From the NCBI RefSeq assembly GCF_037975245.1, contig NC_092580.1:14979001-15043000 (forward strand): 64,000 bases of DNA, read 5' to 3'. The first letter of the stretch is position 1. The number at the start of each line of letters is the position of its first letter. Source of the stretch: Apostichopus japonicus (taxonomy: Eukaryota; Echinodermata; Holothuroidea; Aspidochirotida; Stichopodidae). The notes beneath the pieces were generated by a model. The model saw only the letters and a program-made list of their open reading frames with translations. It was not told the DNA's origin and searched no databases. Shown piece by piece: positions 7,501 to 56,983 of this stretch. The translations under genes were made by a program, and so were the position numbers.

Positions 7501-10500
7501 AGAAAGCTTTCAACATACTGGGTAAAGTCTTAAAGTGTTTATTGATGTCAAATACTGTGAATTTGAGATACTGATTTAGACAGGAAAGGAAACAAACATA
7601 CTCAAACTAAAGAGAGTGATACATTCAGATATCTGCTTAAAACAGTTTTAATTAGTTTCACATTTTCCTCAGAACCCTATCATGACAGTCCTCTTTTAAG
7701 ATGAGCAGTGTGTCTCCTTTTAACCCATTTTATTCATTATGCCAATAATACCAAAAGATCACTAAAACTCTGAATCTTTCCTCCTTCCATGCTCCTTGCA
7801 GATATGTCCTGCATACTCCCCATGCATTAGATCAACCCTACACGCTTACCTTCATCATTCTCTTCAGATATGTGCTGCAAATTCCCTATGCATAAGATGG
7901 ACCCTACACGCTTACCTTCATCATTTTGTCATTCTCCTCTGCTGCCACCACTAGTTGGGGCTGTAGTTCCTTCAGTTCTACCTGCATCTGTCCGACCTGA
8001 CTCTCGGCGAAGGCTAGTTTCTCCAGACCGACCACATATCTCTTCTTGGCTTTGTAAGTCTCATCACGTTTCTTTGTCAGAAGATTCTTGAACGCTGAGA
8101 TCAATTCTAGGTACGAGGTCGGAGTCACGTAATTATGTCGACTCAGCTCTTCAGAGAACCTGTGCATGAATCGAACCAAAAATGAATTACTTCAAAATGA
8201 TGGTCTCAGAAATTACCACTCAATGTCTGCAGAGTGCTAAATGTGTTTGCTAACTTGCGAATCACTTTACTGAAGAGATTCCTCTTTCATTCTCATGTTT
8301 ACTTTCTATCTGGATTTTCTGACAATTGATACATTTCTGAGTGTTTTGTTAATGTTTGGCAGACGATCCAACAGTTACATTGTAATAATAAACTTGCATT
8401 TTTATAATTGCCTGAAAATGCTCTTTTACTATTACAGAACTGTTTACAAAAATATCAATGTTATCAAGGGCTGCACTTACCTTTCTGAAAGAGCTCTCGC
8501 ACTGGTATGGAAGTGTTTACAGATGTCAACAACATCAACTCTCTCTTTCTCCTCCATCTCAACTGTCTCCAGAAACTTAAACGCAACCCTCTCAAGTGCA
8601 TCTTCTGGCCAAGCCTGAGCAGAGAGAAACATTTTTTTTATTATGTATGGTTACCTTATGGAATAATATTTCATGATAAATGAGCCTTAAGTGTACCTAT
8701 TGCATACATCATGCATATCTTTGAACAGTTGGAAAGGTTTACCTTGAAGATTTTCTGGGTTAACAGGGAGTGTGAGGTTGGGTGGGGAGAAGGGGGGGGG
8801 CTAGGTGGTCATGCTATATGATATACACTCTGATAGATTGATAAATTTTGACCATTTAAACTATTAACAATGGAAAGCTGATGTTTCCATGTACTACTAC
8901 AAACATGATTGAAATATTTTTTAAGGCTAGTTATTCCTGTCGTCATACCAGGTATCAAATCTTATTAATAAACAGTGAAATATTTCAAGAGAAAGTGACT
9001 ACATTTACTTAAATCTGAATAAATTTAAATCTTGTTTTAAGCAGCAAGCTTTGAAATATTACGTTGTATTAAACTTGGATTTTCTATTCTTGAGTCTTGT
9101 GAGTATTGAACACACAATAGAAAAGGTAAAATTCTGCAGTGTTTTTTCTCCAATAGATAGCTGTTTTACCTGGAACCAATCAATGGTACAGCAGTTGATC
9201 AGTGATGGGAATTGACGAAGTCTGTTCCTGAAGGCTTCACCAATCGGTGAGAATGCGATGATCACATGGAGGTTCTCCCTGCAACGGCTCACGAAAAAGG
9301 CAAAGAGTGCCAAGGGACTGAAGTCTGCATTTTTGTCACCAGCTTGGGCCACTGGTCTAACAGCCTGTGCAAAACCAAGAATGAATAGTATTTAAAAACT
9401 TAAGCAGAGCATGAAAGACATGATGTAATAGTTTTTAATATTCACAGAGCAATTAAGGATTTAGATTAAGAATTGCAGATTTTCTTGCCACAGAAAAATG
9501 CTAGAAGGTAATTATCGATAACGTCAAACACGTACTAAGGGATTGCATGGTTCTGGTGATGTAAATAATCTTGTTAATGTGAGATATAGATACTTTCAAA
9601 TTTAAAACAAAGGTACTAATTGTATTAAAAGTATTTCCTTCAAATTAACCAATCAATTTTTACAACTATATAGAGTAAAACAAGTGATTCACCTGTTATT
9701 GATAATCACTGAAGAGGCCACCACTCTGTTACTAAGACAAATATACTTTCAATATGATAAACAATTGTAAGTCTACTGTATGATGGCTTATACCATTTAC
9801 AACACTAACCCTTCTCTGATGATTTTTGAGAAATTTTATATGAGTTTACTTTTGCATGGATACAAAACCACATATTCTGCAGTTATTACAATTGTCTTCA
9901 TATTCTGCAAATTTATGAATCTATTACCTCCATAATTTCTTGTTTCTCATCAACAGCATAGAGGTTGGGAACCTCTCCTGTGTTTAACAGATTATCAATA
10001 TCTTCCAGGAATGATTCCTCCTTTATTTGGGTGTCAGTTATCAGGAACACTGTAGGTTTACCCTCAGCACCTGCAGTCTTCATCAGTTGCTATGGAAACA
10101 ATGAATAAAACATGACATGAATATTCAACTGATCGTTATTGCATGAAACCAAACAGACCAAAATGTTAGAGCTGTAAGCATTGAAGTAAATGATAATGTG
10201 TGTGTGAGTTGAGATATTCCATTAATGTGCTTTTGTTCATAATTATTTTCAGTATATCCTGATCGCACTAGTTTTGATATAAATGACTTGGTATGAATTT
10301 TGACAAACTTTAACACATGTGTACCGTTGTTCATGTCTCACAAACATAAATTAACAAATACATTAACCTATTCCTACATAACTTACACCAAGCTTTAACA
10401 CACTGCCTGGTAGACTTCTCTTAGTGTACAATGTCACTATAACCAACCGGACAGACAAGCCACGTCAGTTCAGCTTCTATGCAGTTAATGTTTCTTACCG

Positions 10501-13500
10501 ATGGAAAGAACTCGAATAACACTTGGGAAGGTAAAAGGGGGTGGGGATGGTGGCAAAAGGGTGTGGTGGTGGGGGGGGGGAAGTGGACTGGAGGAGTAAG
10601 GGAGTTTTTGAAATACACCTCTGTTTTTATCTCACCATGATTCTCTATTTGATCCTTAAACTGACTAACACAACTTTTGTTGCTGTCAAAGTCAGTGTCA
10701 CTTTTGAAACTCATTTTACAAGTGCATTTCTAGTAACATGCTGGGTGTGTGATTGGTTTTATTTGTTGGATATAGACTCCTTGTCCAGTGTTATTAGTCA
10801 AGTCTCAAAGTGACAAAGGTCCTCACCTTCAAATCCTCTCGCCATTCATTCTTTCCGTAGCTCTTTGAGATCTCAGGTTGGAAGAGAGAAAATCCTGACA
10901 TGTGGGTTGCCAGTCTTGTAAGGGACTGTCTACCACTTCCACCGACACCAACCAGCATGGCGTTACCTCCAGGCTGTTTCAGGACACGACTGATCTTGGA
11001 CAGATGCTCCAGGACGTACCTTAGGAAGAGGAACAAAAGCAACATATAACAAGACAATTGGACATTGTTTTGGGAATCAAATGGTTGTAGATAAGTAAAA
11101 CATATTGCAGGTTGTAAAGTAATAAAGGTATCTATCTATTTACATAGGAACTATTTTCCTACAAGATCAACAATATTTATCATGAAATGAAAGCAGTTTC
11201 GGACACATAGAGAATCTTTTTCCTTTTGATCAATATGCAATTCTTTTTTAAAGGAAGAATGAAAATAAATTGACACAAATCCGCACACTCTACCCTTACC
11301 AGGTGTAAGGTAAATTGACACTAACCCCCACACACTACCCTTATCATGACCAGGTTCAATAGAATTTCAATAACCTTCATACACTAAGTAAACCTTATTA
11401 TGACTAGGTTCAAGATGCTTTATCACCAATTTTCACGCGCTCCTTATCATGAGCAGGTTCAAGGTACTTTTTGTTTACCTTCTACATGTACACCTCAACA
11501 TCAAGGGTTAAATTTTTCATTAGTTTAATACGATTGGTTTATGATCTTTACCTATCTGCTCAAACCTAACCGTGATCAGGTTGAAGGCACTCTTATATGT
11601 TTCCTTACCTGAATATGACCAGGTTCATTGCATTCTTATGTGTATTATTGTACTCCTCCAGGCTGCTCTCTACCACAGAGTTGAATTCCTCCACGGATTT
11701 GACCTCTTCGTATATCCGATCATTCTCTTCCAGGTCAGGGTTCATGTAGTCCCCAAACATCAGTGACCTCATATTGTCCTCCATGACAGGTTCACCTGGT
11801 GCAGCTAAATGCTCAAACACCCCATCAAACGTATCTTTGAAAATATCCTTCACCAGAGTCTTGGTCAAGCTGTAGGTAAAACAGAATGAATTTTACTAAA
11901 ACTACTTGATATATATACTAAAGATGCTAAGAAATGAGGGAGATTGCTACACTAGAAATTAAGAAGATCACATTTTATCATGTTTCAATTCAGTATTATA
12001 GTGATCAATAGTTTGAAAGTTTTCTTGTAGTGTGTAAAAGACAATTGTGCAAAGACTGTGATTGAAAAATATAATTTGTAACCACCTCAGCAGCAGCTAA
12101 CTGCCTCATGTACAGTCAGCATAACATCAAAATGTTTGACAATGATAAAAGCAGAAACAGCAGATGATACAACTGTTCACATCATTGACACCACATGGAC
12201 ATTGCATCAAGTCTGACCTGTACCTGTAGAGCCATGCTCAGACAATCTTCCAGTAATTTACATCCTATCACCAAACACCATAGGGACATTGCATCAAGTC
12301 GGACTCTTACCTGTAGAGTCATTCTGTACCTTTTCCATGCCATAGAGAATGTTAGCAAACAAGCACAAAATTATCAGGTTTGATTGGCACTGACCAAACA
12401 GCAATGCCCAAAGAGTTTTGCTAATGATTGCTTTAACTCTGACCCTTACCTGTACAGCCAATCTCTATCTTTATCATCTATGAGCCTGTCATAGAATACC
12501 CTGTAGACCTCATGCACCCACAATCTGGTGATTGTCCTCTTATTCTCAATGGCTGGCTTCGTAATCAGGAGAACGCCGTTGACAACTCTCGCAAAATCCC
12601 TCGTATTGAAGGTGTAATGTGACTTGGCTGGTGTCGGGAGGAGGTTAGCAGTGGCCTGTTTGTAGACCTCTAAGGTACCCTGTACCACCATGGTACCACT
12701 GGAAAAGACATCTGTAGGAAATTCGTTGGCCTGCAAGTAAATTAAAGTCAACAGAAATAACAGTAACAATATATGTAAACAGTAATAACATAATTAATGT
12801 AAACAGTTATAACAGTAACAATTAAAGTAAACACTAAAAACAGTAACAATTAAAGTAAACAGAAATAACAGTAACAATAAATGTAAACAGTAATAACAGT
12901 AACAATTTAAGTAAACAGTTATAACAATAACAATTAAAGTAAACAGTTATAACAGTAACAATAACAGTAAACAGTTATAACAGTAACAATTAAAGTAAAC
13001 AGTAATAACAGTAACAATAACAGTAAACAGTACCAATTAAAGTAAACAGTTATAACAGTAACAATTAAAGTAAACACTAAAAACAGTAACAATTAAAGTC
13101 AACAGAAATAACAGTAACAATAAATGTAAACAGTAATAACAGTAACAATTTAAGTAAACAGTTATAACAATAACAATTAAAGTAAACAGTTATAACAGTA
13201 ACAATAACAGTAAACAGTTATAACAGTAACAATTAAAGTAAACAGTAATAACAGTAACAATAACAGTAAACAGTACCAATTAAAGTAAACAGTTATAACA
13301 GTAACAATTAAAGTAAACAGTAATAACACAGACAGTAACATGGAAATATGACTTCCTTTGGGCCAAGGTCAAGGTCACCACAACTGAATATCAGGAGATT
13401 TGGAACAGTGATCTGATCTTTGGTGCAAAGAATTGATGTCACATAGATTGGTGCAAATTTCAAGAGCTTTTGACACAATTAACTTCTACCAATACGAATC

Positions 13501-16500
13501 AAACTTGCATTCTTTTGTGGAAGGGGGGGGGGGCGAATTGGAGAAGCATTGAAGTAAACTGCATCATATCCTTGAAGAATATTTGCTTAAGTGACCAATT
13601 TACCATTACAGAAATTGACAGATACAAAATAGTTAATGTTATAACCACACAGGGGCTGTCTTACAAATGCAATTAAAAAAAAATAACAAACCAATGAATA
13701 CCCAATTTTTGTAAAATAATTTCCTTTATGATATTACTAATTCCAGTCATCGAAAGAATTTACAACGAAAAGTATCTCACCCTGAAGTAATAGCTGACGA
13801 TTGATGAGAATATCCTCTGCATTGTTTCATCGTTGAACTCTGTAATACCGATCACGTTGAAATGACGAAGGAACCTTGGTGTGATGGGGTTACGGCCGCC
13901 CCCTGGAGGACCCATGGCCGCCAAGAATTGGATATCTACCAAGGATATCTTGGAGGTATCTTTTCTGTCGTACCTGTTAAAGAGGGAGAAATGTGCCTTT
14001 GATGTTATTTTCTTTTCTTAATCTGTAAAGTATCCTTTTAAAGTACTTTTTATTACTTAAGCAAGTTAAAGAGAAAACTTTCAATTTTAAAACTAGTCAA
14101 AACACAAAACTTGATCAGTTTTTCAGTTTATCAATGTCTTTATCATTTTCTTGCAAAATATAAAGAAACTAAAATGAATGAACTTGATTTGATATGACTG
14201 AATTAAATCATCAAATAAAGATTTGCAAACCCATTTTCTCGCTTTTAATTTTGTTCAAAGTAGGAACTTTATGGTGATAGATTCGTTTGAAGATTTTAAG
14301 AGTCCATGGTCACCTTGTATTGGATTTTCACTTAGGAAATGGAACACAAAACCACAACTCCCTCGTATCTGTGTAACATTTGATTCCAAACAAAAAATTG
14401 AGGAGAAAGTACTTGAGGAAACCCCAAATCAGCTATTGTGAGTATTTGAGCAATACTAACATATTGGCTGAACTCCAATGAAATAAGAACCGAAATTCCA
14501 TGGTGACAGAGTGTCTACTAACATTAATTCACATAATGATTACTTTGCTGGGGGTGGCAGTGAGGGGCGGGGGTGGTGAGATACCTACCATATTTCATGA
14601 TCAAAGAACTGTCTCAATAGTTCAATAGGAGGCTGAGCTCCGTAGACTTCTCTTGCCGGCATGTTGAGATCGTCGACAAAGATGACGGATCTCTTGCCCA
14701 TCGGAGGACCAAACACACCTTTACGTCTCTTGTCCAGCTTGGACATGATTATGTCCTGAAAGACCAAAGATTTACGAAAGACACATGAAAACCAACATAG
14801 TATGAATATATCCAATAATAACATAAATATGGATATTATTCAATGATGTATTGTATTTTTATACCATCATGCATTGCTTAATTTTGCTTCAATAAATAAC
14901 CACTATAATCTGCCATATTTGCATGTTATAATGTTACATATCACTGTGTTACGTCATGTTTATTGTTCGTTCCACTTTACCTGAGTTTGGTTGGCACTTG
15001 TCTGGGCTGAGAAATTAACAAAGAGGGGCAGGTAGTCATCTTTGGAGAGATGGTTCATCAATTTATCTTTCACGTAGACGCTCTTGCCGGTACCCGTTGG
15101 TCCAACAAACATGATACCTCTGCAAGAAAAAAACATATAAAAGAATAAACATGATACCTCTGCAAGAAAAAATCATATAAAAGAACAAACATGATACCTC
15201 TGCAAGCAAAAACATATGAGAGAAAATCTTTAGGACCTGTTGGTCCAACAAACATGATACCTCTGCAAGTTAAAAACATTAAAATAACAATCTTTAGGAC
15301 CTGTTGGTCCAACAAATATGATACCTCTGCAAAACAATCTTTAGGACGATGACCAAACTTTGGAAATGTCATCGGCAAGGGTTAAACTCCAGAGCTGTGA
15401 AACAACAACTGGAGGTGATATTTTATAAGATGATAAACAGATAACATTATATATGAAGCTAAATTCTCATAAACCAAAAGGGGAAACAAACAAAATATAA
15501 ACCACTTAGTTTCTGATGATTATAAATTTCCTTGTTTCAGTCAAGTGTCTCATATAATGACATATATATGTCTGTACCTAAGGTGTTATAACATTATAGA
15601 TATACCCTATGTCAATGACTACTTTTCTTATATATTTGAAAATGACCATGAAAGTCAAGTATAAAATTACCATAATAATGTGACTTATATTAAACCTAGC
15701 CAAACACACAAGCATGACATGCTTTACAACACTGGAGTATTACTAAGTTTAGACAATACAAACCTCTTGTGCCTGATGCAGATGTCCATAAGGTATGTAT
15801 ACCGTGCGGTGTCCATGGTTGGTATGATGATCTCCTGAACCTTACGACCTTGACCAATTTCAGCATTTTTAATGGTTTCATTCCAATGAATCCACTTCCC
15901 ACGACCTTTGAACTGGACAAATGACACACAAAATGCAAATGGGATAATATAAATGGTGATCTAGAAACTTCTTCATGGTGGCTGTAACTTAGAGCTCCGC
16001 CTAACTGATGATCAAATCAGGTTTATAGTAGTCTTGCAGTAACTCACTAATTACAATAAAGCACTATCAAAAGCCACAAGCTGAGGGGGCTGCAGCATCA
16101 CTACTGCAGCTATGCTGCAGGAGACAGAATCCTTTTGTGCTCTGCAGTTTCATACAATAGGAGCTTCTCTTATGCAGAGATATTCTTGATTGATACAGCC
16201 CTGTTAGAGGGACTTTATATGCTGTTGAAGCTTTCCTTTTTGACAAGGTAACCTTACAGTGACCACCTTATTAGTCATACAGGAGCCATTTAGTTACTTT
16301 CTAAATGTCCTCAAGTGAAGCTACAGTAGGAATTAGGGAGTAAGCAAAAGAAGCTGATCATCTTACAAAGTAAGCTGCCATGGTCATCACAGACAATGCC
16401 ATGGTCATCACAGACAATGAAGCTAGGGACACCTGTCATCGAGTCAACAAATATATATTATTTTAGGAAATGACAGTGATTCCCCAAAGGTACACCAAAT

Positions 16501-19500
16501 CCACTTATCATTCTTTCATGATGCAAAAATGACTGAATGACTTTTCACAGGTCAAAGTAAGAATTTGGCAGGATGGAGGCAACTTGAAGCCCTAGAATTT
16601 TGTCTCCTTCATGTGAACAAACTATATGTATGTGTTCACAATGTCATTACGTCTACATCACACTCGATTGAGATGTATATCAATGCACTGCAGGATCTTC
16701 CAAGCACAGAAACACAGACACTGTGTCTGAATATAATAATTGAATGAGTGAATCAGGTGAACTTACATCGTACATGTAGTCGTAGACCAAACCCTCCGGT
16801 GGTAGAGGAACGTCTAGCTTATTGCCGACTTGAGCCGGGAACGGATTATCCTCCGATTTATTGTTGAGGACATCCCTCAGGAAGGTGTCAAACTTGACCC
16901 GGCCCTTGTTATCTGTCGTACAACCGACAGACCACACCAAGGAGAATAGGAATGTAGACTGAAATGAAGGAGTAAGGGAGAAAATAATCAATAGATGGGA
17001 ACGGGTGAGGAAGAAATCATCAATAGATGGGAACGTGTGAGGGAGAAATCATGAATTGATGGGAGCGGACGAGGGAGGGATCATGGGATGCTGGGAGTGG
17101 GCCAGGGAGATATTATCAATTATTTGATAGTTTTTTTCTAGAGATGAACAATTCAATATGTTACTTATCTGTCTAGTATTGAAATTTTTTGAAAACATCA
17201 TAAATCCAATCTTTTCATAATTATAGCCATTGAATATGTGTTATTTTGTAAGTATGATCACTTTTCTTTCTTTTTTGGCCTACTTCTTTCATTTTACTAA
17301 CCAAATCACATTCTCTTTAAAAAGAACATACAAAAATTAATACAATAATGTGGAAAATACCTCATAAACATCAAAATGTGAGAGGATCATAAGCATGTCA
17401 CCACTGGGTGAATTCAATCTACCAACTTGGATAAAAGTAAAACAGCAGCAACACAAGGATACCTTTCAAAATATGCACGAGCACCAAATAGAATATTTCC
17501 TTTTCATAAATTAAAATTTGATGAAATTTTTTTTCTTTATTTCAAAGAATGCAAAATAGATATTCAAACAAGTTACTGGTTGAAAAGTTGCATAAAATTA
17601 CTTACAATTATCCAAGTCTTTAGAGTCTTGGCATCAGCTTTATCTAAGTTATCATCCAGGAACATTCGGATAAAAGACATCAGGGATCTGGCCAAGCTGT
17701 TGTTCATGGTAGGAACGTACTCCTGAGTAGAAATATCGGCAGTGAAAGAAGAATTATTTACCAGTACCTTACCCTCTTCTCCCCCCCCCCAAAAAAAAGA
17801 AAAGTTAAAAAGAACACACTTATAAAATCATAGTAGGGCAAGCAGTATTGAGAACAGGTTGTATGAACAAGATATTTCACAAATGACTGTGGTAGACTCT
17901 GTATGTAAGGAAAATAAATTCAAATTAAAGATAGGAAAGGAAATAGCAGGGTTTGTGAAAAAGACATTGCACAAAAGACCAAGCAGAGAGATTTCTGGTT
18001 TGAGGTTTACCTTTAGGTTTTTTCGTAAGTAGACAAGGCATGGTTCCAGGAGCCAATCAAACAGGGCATTGATAAGAGCACTTTCTGCCTTCAACATCTC
18101 TGGTAGGTCGTTAATCCAGGATTTCAAGACTGGTCGCCAGCCGAGGTTAGAAGGTTCCAAGTATATCATTCCACAGCGACTGACGGTAGCAGGCTGTAAA
18201 GGGAAAAACGAAGAGAATTCCACCATTGCGGTCTCAGTATATTGTTCATTTATTCGTCACTTTTATGAAAGGAGATGTCCCATTGTCGGACAGCAATATA
18301 TATATTTTCTACCGGTAACAAAGGTGGAAACATTTCACAAAAAGAATAACCATTTCTCCTCTTCCTCCCAGCTAAGTTCAGAAGAGTTTCAAAATGTTTC
18401 AGATGAGAAGTCAGCAAACCTTGGTATAACAAAATTCATCCCAAGCTTCAGGTAAACAAACATTACTACGAATGATTTCTTGAAAGATAAAGAGAAAACA
18501 GCAGCTTACCGATGCTTGAGACAAGTCCATTGCTTCAAAGATCAGACTCATAGGTGGAGACATCTGTATAATTTCACCGCTCATTAAGCAGAGCTTCTTG
18601 TTATCGTCCAACACTGTGTTCATGCTCTCGATCCAAAGGGTGTCGATGGGTCCGTCGAAGATGACCCACTTCCGATCTGGGGTGTCGGTCGATGCAAACT
18701 CACGGAAGGTATTAGCGACTACACCATCTGTCCACTGCAAGAAAATTAAACAATATTTCCACACAGTTACAGATAGTTGCAGTAGACTTTGGACATATTG
18801 ATATATTGACGGGGACATGGGAGGATGGACCCATACAGTTACCGCATTCATCTCCCATGCACCTTCCTAAATATCGATGTCAAATTTACAAAATCTGCAA
18901 AAACATGTTATAATTTTAAAATCTTTAATACTTCAATATTTCTCGTTATCAGAAGCAAAGTATTTTATCTTTGGGAAAATTCTTTTTGAATTATGACTAA
19001 CTTTGTGGTATAATACCTTATATTGCATCTCACCATTCATCAATAGTGAATAAAGTATGATTTCATAAAAGCTCTAGAAGGACTCCCACTTATATATACC
19101 CAATGAAAAAGTTTTCTAACCCACTTAAGGTATGAAATAGTGCCAAACACCCACAAAAAAAAACTCTATGCTACCTTCATATCATGTACTGACTTCCAAC
19201 TTTAAAAGAAATATAAAACTTACCTCATGGGAGACAGGATCAAACTGACCAAACAACTGCCCCATGGTGACCGACTTGGGATTGATGGTTCTATAAATGA
19301 CCTTTTCCTCCTCGTTGAGTCCCCTTTCGTTTAATAAGGTCAGGACTTCTGCTAAAACATGAAGGACTTCAGTCTTACCAGCAAAAGATTCCCCGACTAA
19401 CATAAACCTGTTAACAAAGGTAACATTATAAAACATGGTAAAGATGCTTGGACAGATTACAACACAAAACCATGTTAAACAATTGCAATATCTAGTTTCT

Positions 19501-22500
19501 AGTACCTATTAATGTGTAACTCATAGACCTTCACAACAGGTGCTTACCTATGCCCAACAACCATCATTCCATAAATAACACATTTTACTAAACCAATGTC
19601 TTACAATAATTATTAAAACTTCCTAGTTAACAACAGGGACTTACCTATGCCTAACAACCATCTGTTCCATAAATAACAAAACATACTAAACCATGCCTTA
19701 CAATCATTATTACAACTTCATTGACCTAACAACAGGTGCTTACCTACACTTAAAAGCCATAATTTCATAGGTAGCAATAAGTAATCCACTTACCCATGCC
19801 TTACAATCATCATCTCATAGGTCTGAATGATTTTCTCTTTGAAGATTTCTACAGTTTGAAGATTCTTCTGTTGACACACTTCCTCGACGGCATCTAAAAA
19901 TATCTTGTAATCTGCTTTCGGGAGGACTACCCCTGGAAACAGATCCGATATGATACCGTTGAAGAGAGGGATGTCATGCGACAAGAACTTGGGCAAGTTG
20001 ACGTCGATGATGGATCGGAGAAGCTGCGGAATAGCAGAGGTAGACGCTCAAATAAAATCAGAATGTGTGAAAGTTTGGTTCTATCATGATGAAAGACCAA
20101 AAGGATGGAACAAATTATGAGGAAGAAAAAGTATCTCTTTTGAAGAATAGTCTAAAAAGCTATATATCAATGGAAATATAATCTGAAAGGCTTTTGCATC
20201 AAAGTAAAAGCACCTTGGCTACTATTTTAGAGAATTTCCTTTCCTTTTTGAATGTTGAACGACCATATCAAATATAAGTGGAAGAAGAATTTTCCGTAGA
20301 GAAACAATGCAACATCACAACCAGGGATGTTCTGGATAATTTGGGTCATTTTCATAAAATGTTTAGAATTCTCCGGTAACTATGGACCATAAGTACTATT
20401 TGTGGCAATTAGCAAAGAGGTGGTAGGAAAAGTATCAATTTATGACTGGTGTTGGTCTGTAAGACTGAGTACAGGTCAATGGCGACCCCAACGAGCATCT
20501 TAGCTGCATCACTGATCAATTCAAATTTATTTCTCTTATGTAATTCAAATTTATTCTCATGCGGTTCAATCAGAAATATCAAAAAAAGAGTACAATGGCA
20601 GTCACTGTGGACCCCTTAGGTCAGGGAAAGGTAGTTGCTATAATCACTTCAACTTTCCTAAACTTGCATTGATGAACAACTAATGCTTAACATAGATATA
20701 GTAAATCTAGCCACTCCCCAGCTTATCCTATAGTATGTTTGGTACTCGCAAATATAGTGTACTCATACGATATTACTAAGCAAATCTTCAACTTACCAAG
20801 ATATCCTCATTCTCATCAGGAAATTTTAGTTTGAGGTTACCAGCTGCCGCCAGGACGGCCTTGACGGCCCTCATCCCGTAATCATAATGAAACTGAGACG
20901 AAAGCTGCTCCGAGCAGAGACGGTAAGTGGTGACAATCTTGACGGAGAGGTTGCGAGCATCGATGAAGCCGTAGGAGTAGAGCATGATCTCACCGATCAT
21001 GGCATAGTCTGGAACCATCATAGCCACAGTACGGAACAGTACCTGGAGATGAGGATGAGGATGAATTTATATAAAACTTAAAGTCAAATATTAGAAGAGT
21101 ACTTCAAAAAAAAAATTAAACTATGAAAGTGACTGTGATTATCAACCACACAAGACACATTAGTCCTGTTATCTCTTGATGACATCTTTTCATTGTTTTA
21201 ACTTTGCAGTTTACTTAATTTGGTTGCTATTAAACACTTTCGAGAACAGGTTGAGCAGTGTTCCTAACGTGGACAAAATTTCTTACCTTTAGGTTGTCCG
21301 GTAGTTCTGAGCGACCAGCATATCCAGGGTTCATGGTGATGGCTACAAAGCAAGATGGTTTCAAGCTTAGCTCTGTCCCTTCAAACATGAATGAATCGAC
21401 CCCTGCTATGACGGCTCGCTGAATACAGAGAATCTAAGTGGAGAGGGAAGGAATGATGATAACCTTGTAACCATGGTGACTACTTCAGTCAATGGCTTGA
21501 GTATCTGAAATACTTCAGTTACATTCTACGGGTTTATGGCATTCTTGGCTTACTTCCATTATTTTATACTGTTTTCTCAGCCAATCAAAGGGAAGAGTAA
21601 AATCTTGACATGAGCAATGATTCCCCACACAGATACTCCGGATCACTGAACTGACAGTCTTATCTATTCAGAATGATCAAATCTGTTCTTTCATTCATTA
21701 ATTTGATTTATCACATGAAGAGTACAGAGAGTTGGTATGAAACATACAAATTATATGAATAGTGAAATTTAATAAACTAAAATCCCCTTGAGGGCTAAAC
21801 ACATAGAATACTCTGTGAACAAAGGACAAAAAAGAAAAAGAAGTGACGAAACTATACACACGTAATAACCACACCAGCAACCTCTCACCTAACCACTCAC
21901 ACACCCTCCCCCCTCCATCCCTCACCCCTCCCCCATCCCTCACCCCTCCCTATTCCCTAACACACAAACACTTTCTGAAAATGAAAATACTTATTTGTGA
22001 TATCTATTATAGACAAACTTTGTTCTCTGTTACAAAAACTACTTCCCAAAAACATTTATAACTCACCTGCTGAGCTACCACAGACAAGACCTCCAGTTCA
22101 ATTCTGTTGAACTCATCGAAACATGCCCAGGCTCCTGACGATGCTAGACCTTTGAAGAATTTTCCCATGGCTATGAAATCAAGGCCATCTGAGCAGTTGA
22201 AGACCACGCACTGGACGGCCAGGGCCTTGGCCAAATCTTTGGTGGTCTCTGTCTTACCAGTTCCGGCGGGGCCCTCTGGGGCACCCCCCAGATTAAGATG
22301 GTATGCTCCAACCAGTGTACGATAACAACGATCAGTCAGTGGAGTGATCACTAACCTGTTACAAAGAAATCAAATTGAAATCATTATTATCCTCCAAAAA
22401 AGGAAAAAGAAAACAATTTTGTGGACAAAACTTGTTCCTAATTTCTTGATATAGCCAGCAAATACTTCAATCTCTTGTAGCCCATTTCGGTGACACATTT

Positions 22501-25500
22501 GTGTACAAATACAATCTGGTATATGACAAGTCGCAGAGAGTAAACTTACCGTCCTGAATTTCCCAGGTATTCGTACGCATACTTGACTGTTGCATTGGTT
22601 ATTCTCACCAGTACATTATTCTGCTCCCAGTAGTATCGTAGTTGAGACAACCAATTGAAATCGTTCTCTGAACTCACACCTGAAGAGAGAATAAAATACA
22701 CCGATGTTAGTTCAAAATCAGAATACATCTTGCGGCTACTTTAGTTTCTAAGTGGAAAGAAAATTTGTTACCATGCACAATTTGGAACATAGAAATAGTT
22801 CAATTAAAGTACCAGGGAAAAGTATTATTTTAATCTTAGTTCAATTCAAATTTGTCAAAAATGATAAGCGTTTATACGTAAAGGGATTTTTGTGGTAACT
22901 ACTGCTGATTAAAAAAGAAACACAATAATAAAGGAAAGTAAACTGACAAGGCCATCAGTTTTGCTAATAAGGCTTCATTGCAATTGTTTGACCTTGCTAC
23001 TGGGTCCTTCTCTGATGGGTTGAAAAAGAAGGTGGAGGGTCTGGGTTACAACAGATGGGAGAATAAGGGGAGTAAAAAGTAGCAAACTTGAAGAGCACAT
23101 CAGTCTTTCTATTGGTTGTTTGCACTGTTGTTACTACAAGTGTGACTTCCAATACAAATAAATACAGACAAGGAACTGAAAAAAAACATATGAGATAATA
23201 GTCTTTTTCATACTTTTATGACAAGTTGCTCTGATCATTGGACAAAAACTCTTTACCTTTATCACACATGTCCAGGACGACATCTCTGGCATGCACATCA
23301 ATGACTACAAGAGCTCCCAGGGTTGTACGAGTCTGTTTGGAGAGCTTGCCGCGCACCAATTTGACGATCTCACTGAGCTGTTCCTGTAGCTTTTCGTGGT
23401 ACTCCTTCAGACCCTGGGGTCCACCTTTGATGGCTTCGTGAACCTCAACGGTCCAATATATTTGAGACACACAGAGCACCACCTGACCAGGCCACTCCTG
23501 CACCCACAGCACCCGCTCTTCAACACCATATGCCTAACAAAACAAAATGAAAGAAAGATGGAAGGATCAAGTGTCTGGAAAACTGAGAAAAAAAACAAGG
23601 AATACATTATTTTCCTCCATACTTGTAATTCTGGAAAGAAGGGATTGACTTTATTCCTCATTGCAATATTAACAATCCCCACCCCCCACCCCCACCAAAA
23701 CAAAATGCAATTTTTAACTCACACAATTGTTTCCTATTAAATGCATTGCGGTGGTCCTATATGAGCCCTTCAAACAAATGCTTCACATATTTAGTGTATC
23801 AATGGTTACAGACAAGTCTTCTACAACATCTAGAACCATCATTGAGTAATCTTACAGAAAGTACTAAAGAGTATGTTTCAAATAGTGTAATAATTCAATA
23901 AGATAAGACGTACATACAGGTCATTCTCAGCGTTACACATAAATTACTAGATATATACTCACAGGTTAGTATGATGCTTTTACCACATACATAACTATAT
24001 ACTTACAGCATACATGACTATATACTTACAGAGTACAATGGTTCTACCACATATGACTATATACTTACAGCATATGATGATTCTACCACATCCCTGACGC
24101 TGAGCAACATGATATCCTGTACTTGTAACAACCATTTCTCCACAGCTCCTCTAGCTTCAGAAGTAGAGATTACCGATGACAACTTGACCTGTCAGACAAT
24201 AAAATAATTTATATAGTTGCTTGAGAACATTTAACAAAAACAAAATCAAATATACCATTTTTCTCCTCTCTGCTATTTTCCCCTTTCAATATTTTTTCTT
24301 CACACCAGTAGGATATGCAGGCACATAGTATTGTGTAATACTTTTGTAGTTAATATGTGACATTTATTGATATCACCTGTTGAAATTCTGTTGAGTGATC
24401 GAACTTGGCTGATTGGTGCGAGTGAAGTGATTCTGACTACTTTGTTTATTTTCTGTCATCATAGTGATCATAAGCAATTAGTCCATTTTTACTCCTTTGT
24501 TTTAGCTTGAATCAAAAGCGGTAACTACAAAAAAAGAAGAAGAAACCTTGGTAAATTGAATGCTTACCCTTTCTCCTTCTGAACTGAGCATGGACAAAAT
24601 ATCCAGGGCATCAGTAAACTCCAATTTAGCGATGCCTTCGAAACATTTCTTGAGGTGAGGTTGTACTCGCAGAGGGTCTTTGGTCTCTGAGAGGATCTCC
24701 AACATTTCATCGTTAGACAAGAAGAAGAATCTGTAATGTAACAAATTATTAATTGGAGAAGCTGTCATCACTTGTCATCAAACCTGTATATACGTGAAGA
24801 TAACTGGCTGTATGTGGGAGGGGGTTGGGAACATATCTTTCAATTAGCTTTGTCGGGGGGGATGCATTTTACTCACTACATTGTTTAAGTGAATTTCTGC
24901 TTTTTACAAGTCTTGCAAGTCAGTGACCTATGTTCTACAAACCATACAGACCATACAAACAATACTGAAGTTTTAACTTGTACAAGTCACACACAAAATA
25001 AAGACTAACTACCATGTAGTGCTAAATTGTAATTGGTTTATTTTATATACAGCTAGCAGAGGCATCCATAAACAATTTCATTTCTACATTCTGATATTTG
25101 ACAATGGGAAAAACTTTTTATGACTATGTACTTACATTGCATTTATAAGCAGACTTGACCAAACCATAACAAGTCAATCATCAATTACAATCATTTTTAC
25201 CTAAGAGACTGGTCAATTATGCAAATAGTTTACTGTTAAATATTGCAGTGTCATCAATGTCACCAGGAGTTTGTAGTCTTATCATGCTAAAAAGCTTCTG
25301 ATAATGTATTCTAACATTATTATATTTAATCATTATTATATTTACTGAATCCAAACATGGCTATAAAATACAGTCCACATGTAAAAAGCAACTGTCTGTC
25401 TGCAGTAAAAGCTTCCAAGCATTAGAACGTAACTTCCTTGCTTAGTTTTGCTTCCAGGTATTAAATAAAATCTCGCAAGCTGAGATACCATGAGCTTTGA

Positions 25501-31500: not shown

Positions 31501-34500
31501 CCAAAGATGGCAGCATAGGTGATGTCAGACTTAGCAATTCATCACTTCATACTATCAGAGGGTATTTCGTGATGATGTAAATTAAAGCAATTGGTTGCAC
31601 TTTGGAAATCAACATCTCCCCTTATGATAATATATGAGTGTAGCGATAAATTATAACAGAAAATAACAAATTTAAAGGGAAAAAAAGGAAAAAAGTGCAT
31701 TACTCCAAAACAAATGTCAACACTTAGGCTACACAGATGATAACATATTTATCAGACAACTACTTCAGCCCAGCCCACTACTAGCTAAGGTGTCAAGTGA
31801 AAAAGAATTTTTTAATATTAAGCAAACTAACAGCAGCAGGGTAGCCTGACACTAACATTGCCATCGTAAGATTACATTTTCATTGAGGGGTACCAAGAAC
31901 ACATTCTGTTGAGGATGAGGGGCCACTAAGGTATTATGAGTCGTTACTTTAATATACTCCTCCCATACATGATGGCTTTTAATAACCATTTCAACCACTG
32001 TTATCAATTGACAGACCATGAAGTACTACTGCATATTTGGTTTATCCCTGTCTCGTTACTTGAAGGCAATGTAATACTTACTTTACAATATTCTTCAAAG
32101 TTATGTTCCTCCTGCAAGAATTGCTTCACTTTCTCTTCTTCCTCTCCATTACATAAGTGCTGGTACTTGTCAACTGTAAATGAGAAACAGACAATCAATC
32201 AATCAATCAATAAATCCATCGATCAATTGCAAACAAGCCCTGCATTGGTCGACGTGTAATGCTTTCTAGCCACCAACCAGCTTTTCGGATTAAATTTACA
32301 TAGAAAATAATAAGTAAGTTGGCCTGACGTTTCGATCCTAGCAGGATCTTCTTCAGAGGCTAAAAATTTTTATTTTTATTTTCATTTTTAGCCTCTGATG
32401 AAGGTCCTGCTAGGATCGAAACGTCAGGCCAACTTACTTTTACACATTCTATTACACAGGCTCTCTAGTGGATAAGCAGTTTGCTAACAGTTTTATTTTA
32501 TTTTGAGAAAATAATAAGATACACAGAAGCAACCGTGCGACAGTATAGCGTTGGCAGCCAGCAGAGAATTAAGTTTGACAGTAAACTCACTATATGACTG
32601 TAGATGAGCTTGTGGCCCTTCAAAGTTGAGCCTGCATGCCTCTTTCAGTTTCCTGTTGCTCTCTTCAATGATGTGTTTGGCAATGGTTACATCTATGTAT
32701 CTCGATTCATTGGTGGACGAAAGCCATGACTGGACGGTAGGCACGCTCTGCATGGTCTTGGTCAACTGCTTGACCATGAATAAAAGGCACTCCTCTAAAT
32801 CGGAATAGTATGGGTAGAATTCCATCTTGTCATTGTCGTAGGTCAGTTCCATTTTGAAAACGGGGAGATACATTTTATCCTCCGGATTAAATAGAGTGAC
32901 CCATGCCTCGATGCTCCTTGTGATGAAGTCCTTCAGCTGTAAATGAATGACAGAATACTTGGGTACTAAAGAATTCAATTATCATTGCTTTTAGTTTTAA
33001 CCGTAGATAAAAATCAGGGTTTGTTATGAAAAAAAAGTCATGTAATAAGAGGGGATGGGTGGGTGCTTAATAGCTGGTTGCGGACAGTCATAAACATTGG
33101 CTTGCTGTTATGAAAGACATAGTGTCTGGTAGAGGGGTTGTGATGGGATAAACTGAAGGTAGAGAAAAAACACAGTGTAATAATCCCCTTCAAATGTACT
33201 TCTATGGGATTTATGACCAAAGCACAACATCAGTTACTACACAGTAACCTAAACTTGACTTCCAGTAAATCCACTAGATGAAGGCAACCTTATACTGTCA
33301 AATGATGTTCTAAGAATCAAAAAGAAGAAAAACTGAAAAAACAGAAGGACACAAAATACATTCATTCTTTGACAAATCTTTAAAAAGGCTAAACACCCTG
33401 TCTTTAAAAGATTCAGAAAGTCACGAGGTTATCTGCATACTTGGTTAGATATCAAGGTCGCCAAACTTCCATAAAACGAGTCCGCTTTATCTGCTCCCAC
33501 AGGTGCACTCTCCTGGAGAATCACGTGCAACACTTCCCGGAACCAACTGTGCATGAGCTTCTCCTCCAACTTTTCGCAGTCCAGTATGACATCGTTCTTC
33601 AGTCGTTCGCAGTCGACCGGACCTTGGGCTCTGAGACCGGAAAGGTCCAACATGAGGAGTGGCATGAGGACCTCTTGACAAATCCCGAGGATCTTCTGGG
33701 TGCACGGATGGGTGATGTGGAGGTTTGATTTGATGTACTCTACACTCTCCAGGTACTCGTTGTGCCAAGGACTGGAGAAATCTAAACCACTGTGAAAATA
33801 AAATCATGATCTCCAGTTTGCATGCAAAATGTGATAAAGCATATGACTATGAGTAAAGGATAAACCACAAATGTAACATAGCTATATGGAATTACCAGCT
33901 ATACAAACTAAATCATTTGGTTGCCGTCTGTTTACAGCGTGAAATGAACAAACTGTTTTACAAATTATGTAACATATTTCAGTTGGTTTAACATTCTTTA
34001 TCATATCATTAAGTCTACATTTACTATTCAAAACTGTCAATAAGGTCCTCTCTTTGCAAATCACCTAAGACACATCCAAAGCCAAAATTCATGAATATTA
34101 CAATAATCTACTCTGGATGACTTAGTAAACAAACAATGACAAACATTTTGTGTATCTTCAACCTTGAACAAATTAAAGTTCTTTTTCAACTCCACTTACG
34201 TAGGTTCCTCAGGGGGTCCTCCAGTTGTATCATTTTCCAATCCTTTGATGCCCTCTGGTTTAACCAGCACATGTTGCACTGCATCGTTGCCAAAAATAAG
34301 AGAAAAACAGAAAAGAAGAGGGTAGGAAAAGTTTACGACCATTGATTACCAATTGAAACTACAACTTGAAGGTATAATTTCCATAATTATTGAACAGGAT
34401 ATGGTACAATTTAAGTGGCATCACAACACTGTGTAACTATAATCCATTGTTTTTCTTTGTTTTCATTATTATTATTGCTACGCATTATTATTATTATGAT

Positions 34501-50727: not shown

Positions 50728-51005
50728 GATATTTTTTGTCAAACTGATCTTTGATTAGTTGCACTTTTTGCAGTCATTTTATTTCCCTCTTTCTCCGGCC
50801 TCTTCACTTGCTTTCACAACCCTGCATATTACATTAAAACATGGGCATCAATCCAGGGGGGGACAAGTCCCCCCACATTTCGATGGGTGGGGGGACACAC
50901 TATCAAATGTCCCCCCCACACACACATTTGGAAAAAGAGTAGTGTCGTGGCTTCTATTGGTTAGGGCTTACACATCTCAAGATTCATATCATCGAATATC
51001 ACTCA

Positions 51006-51422
51006 ATGTTGCTGAATGGAGAATTCCACCCAGATCTCGTGAGTTGGTACCCTGAGCTCTCCAACAATAAGCTTAGTCTGCCTTTCTTTCGAGTCCAGTT
51101 CCAGTCGTCGTCGGTTGAATATAATAGACACATATTCAAGGCGATGAATCCAGCGGTACGGGCTATGTTTGGAGAAGTCGAAGCTCTCTTGCGGTTGCTC
51201 CTCGTCTCCTCCGCCAGTTCGACGGAAGCCGAGAGATCTTTTAGTGCTTTGAGGCGTTTGAAGACATGGCTACAGAGCACCATGACTCAACAGAGGCTGA
51301 ACCATGTGATGGTGTGCCATATTCACCGCGAATGTCTAGCCCAGTTGAAGCCTGAGGAGTTAGCAGAGAAGTTTGTTGGTTCCTCGGATTACAGACGCCG
51401 CATCATCGGGCGATTCCAGTAG
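51006..51422 (+). pseudogene. hAT-family transposase C-terminal fragment (dimerisation domain)
   Basis: An open stretch of 138 codons ends in TGA-free sequence up to TAG at 51420. Residues about 70-110 read SASSTEAERSFSALRRLKTW then a STMTQQRLNHVMVCHIH string, the signature of the hAT C-terminal dimerisation region (S-x-x-x-x-E-R-x-F-S...). The catalytic RNase H-like core and zinc finger are missing, so this is a remnant of a transposase, not a host gene; a domesticated use cannot be excluded. Confidence 0.8.
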
Positions 51423-54860: not shown

Positions 54861-55211
54861 TACAGCGCTGAAGGGTAGCCAGTGACGGATCAATGATTTC
54901 GTAAAAGTGTGACTCACCCTACCCCTTACACCGACAACTCCATTTTTTGAGATTTCCATTTTCCTCTCTCACTAATGATCTATATATATACTATATATGG
55001 TCTATCATAACGCGTGTGTAGAATTGTGCTATGAAACCAACTGTGGCTGGTCTCGAACTCGACCGTGTCGTCGGGGAACATGACGATTTTTGGGATGGGG
55101 GCGACCGCCCGCCCCCCCCCCATTCAGCATTTTTTTAAATGATATCGCTAAGTAATTTCAAAATAGAAAGTGCTTAGATGCAACTTACAAGGCCTGGGAA
55201 GTGTCATTTCC

Positions 55212-55370
55212 AGCGATCTGGAAGACATTTTCGGCCAAAATTTGCTTGTACGCTTCGCGCTAACAAATGGTCCTGGGTAGTGCCATTTCCAGCGATCTCG
55301 GAGGCATTTTCGGCCAAAATTTTCTTGAACGCTTCGCGCCAACCTATGGTGGCTCTACGCTTATAGATAG
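55212..55370 (+). repeat. Dispersed repeat family B, copies 2 and 3 in tandem
   Basis: Two copies 82 bp apart (gcgatctgg at 55213, gcgatctcgg at 55294), each followed by gcattttcggcc or acattttcggcc and acgcttcgcgc. Confidence 0.75.
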
Positions 55371-55504
55371 TTTGCCTACAGGCTTCGCCCCTCCCTTGGC
55401 AAATTCCTCGCTACGCGCCTGTTCGAATTTGTAACGCAAACAGCAGATATCACATCATATCAGTGAGCATGAAAATGGCGTTCCAGGATGAAAAGCCTCA
55501 AAAC

Positions 55505-55625
55505 TGTCCGACTTGCCTGAAAAAATAACCAAAAATTTTCGCGCGCGAAGCGCGCGTTCAACGTGTTCATGTCAATATCATATAAGCAAGCATCGGTTAT
55601 TACATCGCATGCCATCATGTACCGT
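55505..55625 (+). repeat. Dispersed repeat family A, partial copy 3
   Basis: Shares gacttgcctgaaaaaataac, tttcgcgcgcgaagcgcgcg, ggttattacatcgcatgcc with copies 1 and 2; the 3' half is absent. Confidence 0.75.
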
Positions 55626-55776
55626 ACGGTCCGTTCAAATTGCGCAGTATACCACGGGATGCTAATGTAAACAACGACATGTCTCATGTAGATGTATAAA
55701 AAGCATGGAGGTCCAATTATGTCAAAATTCTCTTTTACATTAGTAATGGCGAATTAGGGGCTGCACCCCCGCCGCG

Positions 55777-56155
55777 CAGTGGCGGAGCGTCCATACGGTC
55801 AGGGGCGGATGCCCCCCCCCCCGACGGACTCAAATGGACTGCTGGAGCCTTTTTCAGCTCTTTACCACTTTTTACTTATTCTAGATTATTGACTTTTTTA
55901 TTGCGCTCTCATCTACTTATTGACATTTCTCACATTTTGTTGGTGTAATTTGGCGATGACACCTTATTCTTCGTTTATCTGCAAATTAGCCAGGCCCGGA
56001 AAGGGTCATTTCCGGCGATCTAGGGAGTATCTTTACTCAAAAATTTTCTCTACGCTACGCGCCAACCGGTGGTGGCGCTCCGCTTAGATAGTGTCGAAAG
56101 CGTCCCTACAGACCATTCTCGCCCCTCCTGACCAATACCCCTAGCTCCGCCACTG
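55777..56155. mobile_element. Non-autonomous hAT element, 379 bp, innermost insertion
   Basis: Perfect 12-bp inverted ends CAGTGGCGGAGC and perfect 8-bp direct repeats ccgccgcg (55769-55776 and 56156-56163). It interrupts the end of another element: joining the flanks gives cgcctcctacgcctatg, the inverted counterpart of the family A start. Contains family B copy 4 at 56013-56092. Confidence 0.85.
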
Positions 56156-56724
56156 CCGCCGCGCCTCCTACGCCTATGTGTGTAGTGTTCGGTTTCGGAT
56201 ATATCTGCTATTTTTTCATTTCCTTCAACCAAGTTTTACAATAGCCGTTATAAGAGGATTTAATATTTCTACACCAATAAATTAACTGTCTGAATTTTAG
56301 AAAATTTCTGACCAACATTCTGCATCACACTTCCCTCTACTCGTGCAATTTTGACCGGTCTGTTAGGGGTTGAAGGAAGTTTTTCTTTATTGGTTGTCCA
56401 TAGATGAAATTTTGTACAACATTATGGGTATGTTTTGAAGTGAGTTTATTCACGAGAAATGTGAAGTTTCAAATTCTGAACAAATATGGGGCTTAAAACC
56501 TTGAAAAGTGGGGCTGACGGGTATCATAGAGGGCCGCGACGTAGAATCACCTACAAAAGCAAAGACCCACAGGATATGCGATCAGGTCGAACATGATGTG
56601 TGCCGGGTTGACAATCTTCAAAAAGGTTATGGATGGAAAAAAAAAACTTTTAGGAAATACTTGGTTCTCAGGCAAAAAGTGTACATCTGGTTGGTCATTT
56701 CAAGCCCGAGAAGTGCCGTTTCCG

Positions 56725-56801
56725 GTGATCTGGGGGGTATCAAAATAAGAAATTTTCTTGTACGCTGCGCGCCAACCGATGGTGGCGCTCCGCTTAGATA
56801 G
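56725..56801 (+). repeat. Dispersed repeat family B, copy 5
   Basis: gtgatctggggggtatc, aattttcttgtacgctgcgc, gccaaccgatggtggcgctc, gcttagatagt, just inside the right end of the 54648-56844 element. Confidence 0.8.
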
Positions 56802-56983
56802 TAATTCGCGCCCCCCGGGTTTGAAAATCCTGGATACGCGCCTGTAAAGGGTACTAAATATCAGGCCGCATCAGTCCAATCGAATTTCTGCAAAGTGCCC
56901 TTCGACGTTGGTGCCCCCCCCAGATTAAAAGTGCTTCCGCCGCCCTTGCCCACCCCCCACGTTTCAAATCGGATTGACGCCCC

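Follow-up and report, generated by a model that had tools for sequence, protein, structure and literature searches.

Tandem copies of exon borders in the introns of an Apostichopus japonicus dynein gene occur at a frequency probably explained by common small duplications and selection

Short local tandem duplications are a known kind of change in noncoding DNA. A different outcome of tandem genomic duplication, the gain of new introns, has been described in two reports (PMC3443670, PMC2891723). The choice between duplicated splice sites has been followed in transfected minigenes with introns of 365 nucleotides (nt), where identical 5' sites compete and the winner tends to be the site with the shortest distance across the exon (PMC9225289). 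Intron definition instead gives the advantage to the splice site closest to its partner on the other side of the intron (Reed and Maniatis, by the account in PMC9225289). Here we describe natural tandem copies of splice borders in a dynein gene of Apostichopus japonicus, most of whose mapped exons lie within a 64,000-nt stretch of genomic DNA (the window). The genome searched comprises 671.6 Mb in 35 contigs.

The gene under study, a DNAH12 orthologue, is read from the minus strand, and among solved structures dynein axonemal heavy chain 12 is the nearest relative. Approximately residues 361-3768 (of 3960) of that protein served as the guide for a purpose-written spliced aligner, and the resulting spliced protein alignment contains 56 exons and 3365 residues, with 46 of the 56 exons inside the window. 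Its span begins at window position 32753 and finishes some 9.8 kb outside the window on the left, both outer ends being no more than the limits of the guide. The count of 51 exons given by an earlier, sequence-only reading of this DNA is compatible with the 46 window exons plus about five unmapped upstream, and exon n here corresponds to exon n+5 of that reading. Exons were placed by homology alone in all seven dynein genes considered in this study, and since the aligner demands GT or GC and AG, the consensus borders are no independent proof of the exon map.

The sequence-only reading held that blocks spanning the exon end and its splice signal are duplicated in tandem into the adjacent intron at six exons, and it proposed a self-comparison against the exon map as a check. 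That comparison makes head-to-tail copies across the borders visible directly in the sequence and, together with randomised introns, bears out border copies at every one of the six exons, five of them clear and one (exon 30) diverged; all six cases are real. The division into five donors (exons 13, 19, 29, 30 and 35) and one acceptor (exon 26) also stands, and the number of extra copies per border runs from one (exon 35) up to four or five, in line with the one to four originally given. The method was an ungapped diagonal self-comparison of the locus, whose output omits matches of low complexity and those that begin inside the minisatellite at 12740-13330; two randomised sequences treated in the same way gave no matches. 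It was used in place of BLASTN self-comparison, which linked copies to three of the six borders. TRF reports arrays at four of the six (7799-7925, 15104-15332, 19533-19746 and 23980-24091), the third of which ends short of the exon 19 border, and reports none at the borders of exons 29 and 30. At the five clear borders the copies reach 10-28 nt into the exon.

The six cases, all on the minus strand, can be described in gene order. Exon 13 (18 in the earlier numbering; 24069..24188 in the spliced alignment, with the first intron base at 24068) carries a donor array at 23980..24091, detected by self-comparison with offsets of 39, 23 and 62 and including 23 exonic nt; its decoy GTs, at offsets 39 and 62 within the array and 106 outside it, are all intact. 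The exon 19 (formerly 24) donor array at 19530..19813 (offsets 97, 98, 103 and 196; TRF and self-comparison) takes in 20 exonic nt, the first intron base being 19793. Its similarity is 77 percent by BLAST, and GT is kept in three of four aligned decoys, one of them very poorly scored, the nearest decoy being the one without GT. The acceptor array of exon 26 (formerly 31), at 15092..15332, has offsets of 40, 63, 64, 80, 143, 207 and others; the exon starts at 15119, and the array covers 28 exonic nt coding RGIMFVGPT. Four decoys lie upstream, every one reading TTGCAG/AGG (the stroke marks the splice border), so that the splice context is identical. The donor array of exon 29 (formerly 34), at 12188..12472, consists of three copies with offsets of 87, 139 and 226 in the self-comparison; the first intron base is 12449, the decoys read CTACAG/GTAAGA and CTACAG/GTACAG, and the nearest scores at the 95th percentile. 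The diverged copies of the exon 30 (formerly 35) donor fall within 11250..11648, with the first intron base at 11608. This border was not linked to copies at the threshold of the ungapped self-comparison; the exon end recurs as matches of 20-21 nt at 11461, 11412 and 11358 and twice more in weaker form, and the best copy scores 29.4, a value reached by none of 300 Markov-randomised introns (maximum 27.6). Two of its decoys could be aligned, one without GT and the other at the 3rd percentile of score. Finally, the exon 35 (formerly 40) donor is part of a 66-nt duplication at 7799..7925 (TRF and self-comparison) that includes 10 exonic nt; the first intron base is 7915, and the decoy ATGAAG/GTAAGCGT equals the real site exactly.

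The copied splice signals were scored with matrices derived from the seven dynein genes (278 donors, 280 acceptors). The survey covered 17 borders chosen for copies or an adjoining array (eight in DNAH12 and nine in paralogues), with up to eight decoys listed for each. Among the decoys listed, GT or AG is intact in 43 of the 54 that were aligned, and eight of the 11 that lost the dinucleotide belong to one minisatellite, at exon 22 of the paralogue C23. At the six named borders the figure is 14 of 16 aligned decoys, in agreement with the earlier statement that many copies keep a functional-looking GT or AG. Scores are mixed, several decoys equalling the real site and others being poor. Such equal scores, together with offsets that in some cases are multiples of three, are what one would look for if the copies were functional alternative sites giving regulated isoforms or unproductive transcripts. 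But all 15 of the DNAH12 decoys that were read as if used (of at least 19 listed) run into a stop codon, either within the extension itself or within the exon once the frame has shifted. Stops would be compatible with unproductive splicing; borders carrying copies, on the other hand, are not in excess (see below), and a functional role for the decoys appears quite unlikely.

For comparison, six further dynein genes of the genome (210 kb) were mapped, being six of about fifteen other dynein loci, taken for strong matches; the fetched stretches cover parts of genes. Their exons were mapped with the own protein serving as guide (identity 41-65 percent), predicted exons shorter than 40 nt were dropped as likely alignment artefacts, and low-complexity segments and probes were dropped as well. 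Median lengths here are 590 nt for introns and 164 nt for exons. Tandem arrays are present in all seven genes at 0.27-0.56 per intronic kb, and no array lies wholly within an exon in about 50 kb of exons of these genes. Copies of borders are clear in C23, C19 and C1 and doubtful in C4 and C8, where donor scores are poor; in C20b no array extends into an exon. The two doubtful cases, at exon 32 of C4 and exon 3 of C8, were counted as borders in the placement and probe tests described below and are dropped by the score filter.

Some of these copies occur close together or at equivalent places. The same homologous acceptor and exon start are copied in C19 (21531554-21532540; eight copies of a unit of about 82 nt) and in C1 (505815-506539; at least nine copies of a unit of about 39 nt), with AG intact in all 15 of the decoys listed for the two. 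The unequal units suggest independent events, and DNAH12 and C23 have the same intron position without an array there. In DNAH12, intron 51 (-6568 to -6005 in window numbering, hence outside its left edge) is largely made up of two tandem arrays, one adjoining the exon 51 donor and one the exon 52 acceptor, and intron 6 of C23 also has duplicated blocks at both ends. The two introns with blocks at both ends and the acceptor arrays shared by two paralogues hint at local clustering.

Other arrays in the gene, also on the minus strand, do not span borders. A 28-nt minisatellite at 12740..13328 occupies a large part of intron 28, leaving 9 nt between its end and the acceptor of exon 29; a 32-nt array in intron 23 (16975..17121) stops 16-23 nt short of the exon 24 acceptor, TRF and the scan differing in where it ends; and a 21-nt duplication lies within intron 24 (16376..16419). 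Four 10-kb pieces taken arbitrarily from elsewhere in the genome contain 14 similar arrays in their 40 kb, and the rest of the window is thinner in them (five in 30 kb). Outside the dynein gene, 55190-56802 contains an array with a 79-nt offset, within which TRF reports a 79-nt direct repeat at 55193-55350. An open frame on the plus strand at 50943-51419 has a translation with an apparent likeness to the dimerisation region at the C-terminal end of hAT transposases.

The number of cases in one gene had been taken to suggest a recurring mechanism (slippage or repair at borders) or tolerated selection. On the first reading, a mutational process acting at splice signals would target exon borders and copy them into introns. 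In its favour are the six borders in a single gene, a mild surplus of border arrays in DNAH12 and the clustering seen in two introns and at an acceptor that is homologous in two paralogues. Its expectations can be compared with the frequency of arrays across the seven genes. In a placement test, 86 arrays were placed at random, never containing a whole exon, lying inside one or overlapping exon by more than one unit, and a border array was defined as one that reaches at least 5 nt into an exon. The observed number of border arrays is 13 of 86 against 15.5 expected (13 of 69 against 13.5 with a stricter score cut), and the six paralogues by themselves give 8 of 71 against 12.7. DNAH12 alone, a gene chosen for study because it is striking in appearance, gives 5 against 2.9 expected (P 0.14; with the stricter cut 5 against 2.4, P 0.07).

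A second test points the same way. It took the 40 nt around the midpoint of each border as a probe and looked for a match to it in the neighbouring 250 nt of intron. Copies were found at 13 of 496 borders compared with 177 of 2748 random intronic points, and at none of the 496 when the targets were randomised. Introns shorter than 290 nt were excluded from this test, and those shorter than 510 nt from the matched and score-filtered versions, which resample whole introns because the control points of the probe test are mutually dependent. The matched test (178 introns) gives copies at 9 of 356 borders and 187 of 2454 points, a ratio of 0.33 with a bootstrap interval of 0.14-0.57. The border-to-intron ratio is 0.31 (0.12-0.55) when only well-scored splice sites are used; restricting the count to points that have no more than two extra copies (one or two) gives 0.27 (0.06-0.63). 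The rate of copies falls steadily from intron to border to exon: it is 6-13 percent deep in the intron, about 6 percent at 40 nt into it, 2-3 percent at the border and zero at 60 nt inside the exon. Donors carry copies more often than acceptors, not significantly so (10 of 248 and 4 of 248, P 0.17). DNAH12 by itself displays no depletion in the probe test (copies at 5 of 96 borders and at 32 of 535 points within introns; in the strict version 3 of 69 and 20 of 418, ratio 0.91, interval 0-7.2), and its borders are not significantly richer in copies than those of the six other genes (5 of 96 against 8 of 400, P 0.14).

That copies are not in excess at borders in the seven-gene sample is a firm result. 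The depletion and its size are less certain, since the three best-aligned genes taken alone give a ratio of 0.55 (0.20-1.07). With neither an excess nor a peak at the border across the seven genes, the placement test and the probe test both go against the recurring border mechanism that had been suggested, and a process aimed at exon borders is very unlikely. The companion suggestion, that the copies are tolerated, fares better: duplicates with intact splice signals persist.

The copies might also be traces of intron gain through tandem duplication of a coding AG/GT segment, the published route cited above. The likeness of donor and acceptor within the same intron, however, is no higher than random (three of 279 exceed the 99th percentile of 3000 draws), in a test that could miss old, decayed copies. 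Nor are introns with border copies set apart by their positions: shared positions make up 3 of 11 such introns, with the doubtful C4 and C8 cases not counted as copies, and 72 of 247 others. Overall, positions are mostly not shared among the seven paralogues: of 258 introns, 75 have a counterpart no more than 0.4 residue away in one or more of the other genes. An origin of the copies in intron gain is thus highly improbable. An assembly artefact, to which the copy at C23 exon 6, identical over 44 nt, would lend some colour, is barely credible, as many copies differ by several to more than 20 percent and simple assembly error would not yield that.

The explanation that best accounts for these results, to which we give a probability of about 85 percent, is generic local tandem duplication, purged in exons and partly tolerated at borders. 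Short tandem duplications are frequent in the introns of these dynein genes; selection would remove events within coding exons, leaving intronic ones in place, and events that straddle a border would be kept in part. In the retained cases the original site would remain intact beside the exon and still be chosen, while the extra copies would leave with the intron, and it is for this reason that the kept events would resemble border copying. Selection is probably also behind the gap in arrays over exons.

The decoys are probably largely unused, and exon definition, that is, proximity across the exon, is the likely reason. Homology puts the real site at the exon-proximal copy, which is partly a consequence of the method of exon mapping. 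At the eight affected DNAH12 borders introns measure 386-644 nt and exons 120-281 nt, dimensions at which exon definition would be expected to keep the original site in use. Intron definition, if it operates here, would favour the decoys and so count against generic duplication with tolerance at borders, judging from the account of it in PMC9225289.

The original observation is true and was well read, and its frequency is best put down to small duplications, which are common, together with selection; the tempting claim of border-directed duplication falls away. More tentatively, and at somewhat less than even odds, tandemly duplicated splice sites may be numerous across the genome, as the 13 of 496 borders in the seven-gene sample would imply, and their survival at about one third of the intronic rate would measure how often such a duplicate does no harm. 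In that event nature would have supplied a trial of the rule of proximity across the exon, beyond the systems commonly used in the laboratory. The splice sites described here, each facing between one and at least eight near-identical rivals, form a usable data set, from which the fraction of splice-site duplications that is tolerated can be estimated and rules of splice-site choice can be tested.

Among known systems, introner-like dispersed intronic elements do not fit, as similar copies in many introns were not found for the four of the six arrays that were searched. The arrays of exons 19, 26, 29 and 30 matched only their own locus in the genome, in a search that skipped very common words, and within those limits this argues against dispersed elements. 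The gain of introns described in PMC3443670 and PMC2891723 likewise creates extra splice signals by tandem duplication; it differs in that an exonic segment is duplicated, with an intron as the outcome, whereas the copies described here lie inside an existing intron, and the donor and acceptor junctions of one intron are not copies of each other, so that this system too was rejected. The exact pattern of copied borders did not appear in the titles and abstract openings searched, a body of literature that leaves most subscription journals outside. The splice-site competition experiments (Reed and Maniatis 1986, as described in PMC9225289) also set rivals against each other in a similar context; the rivals here are natural, truncated copies, with 10-28 exonic nt at the five clear borders of the window, and are known from sequence. 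The closest likeness is to short local tandem duplication: the units are adjacent and head to tail, tens to a few hundred nt long and of varied divergence, and their rate at borders is not above the intronic rate in the seven genes. What distinguishes these dynein genes is that some of the units include a splice border.
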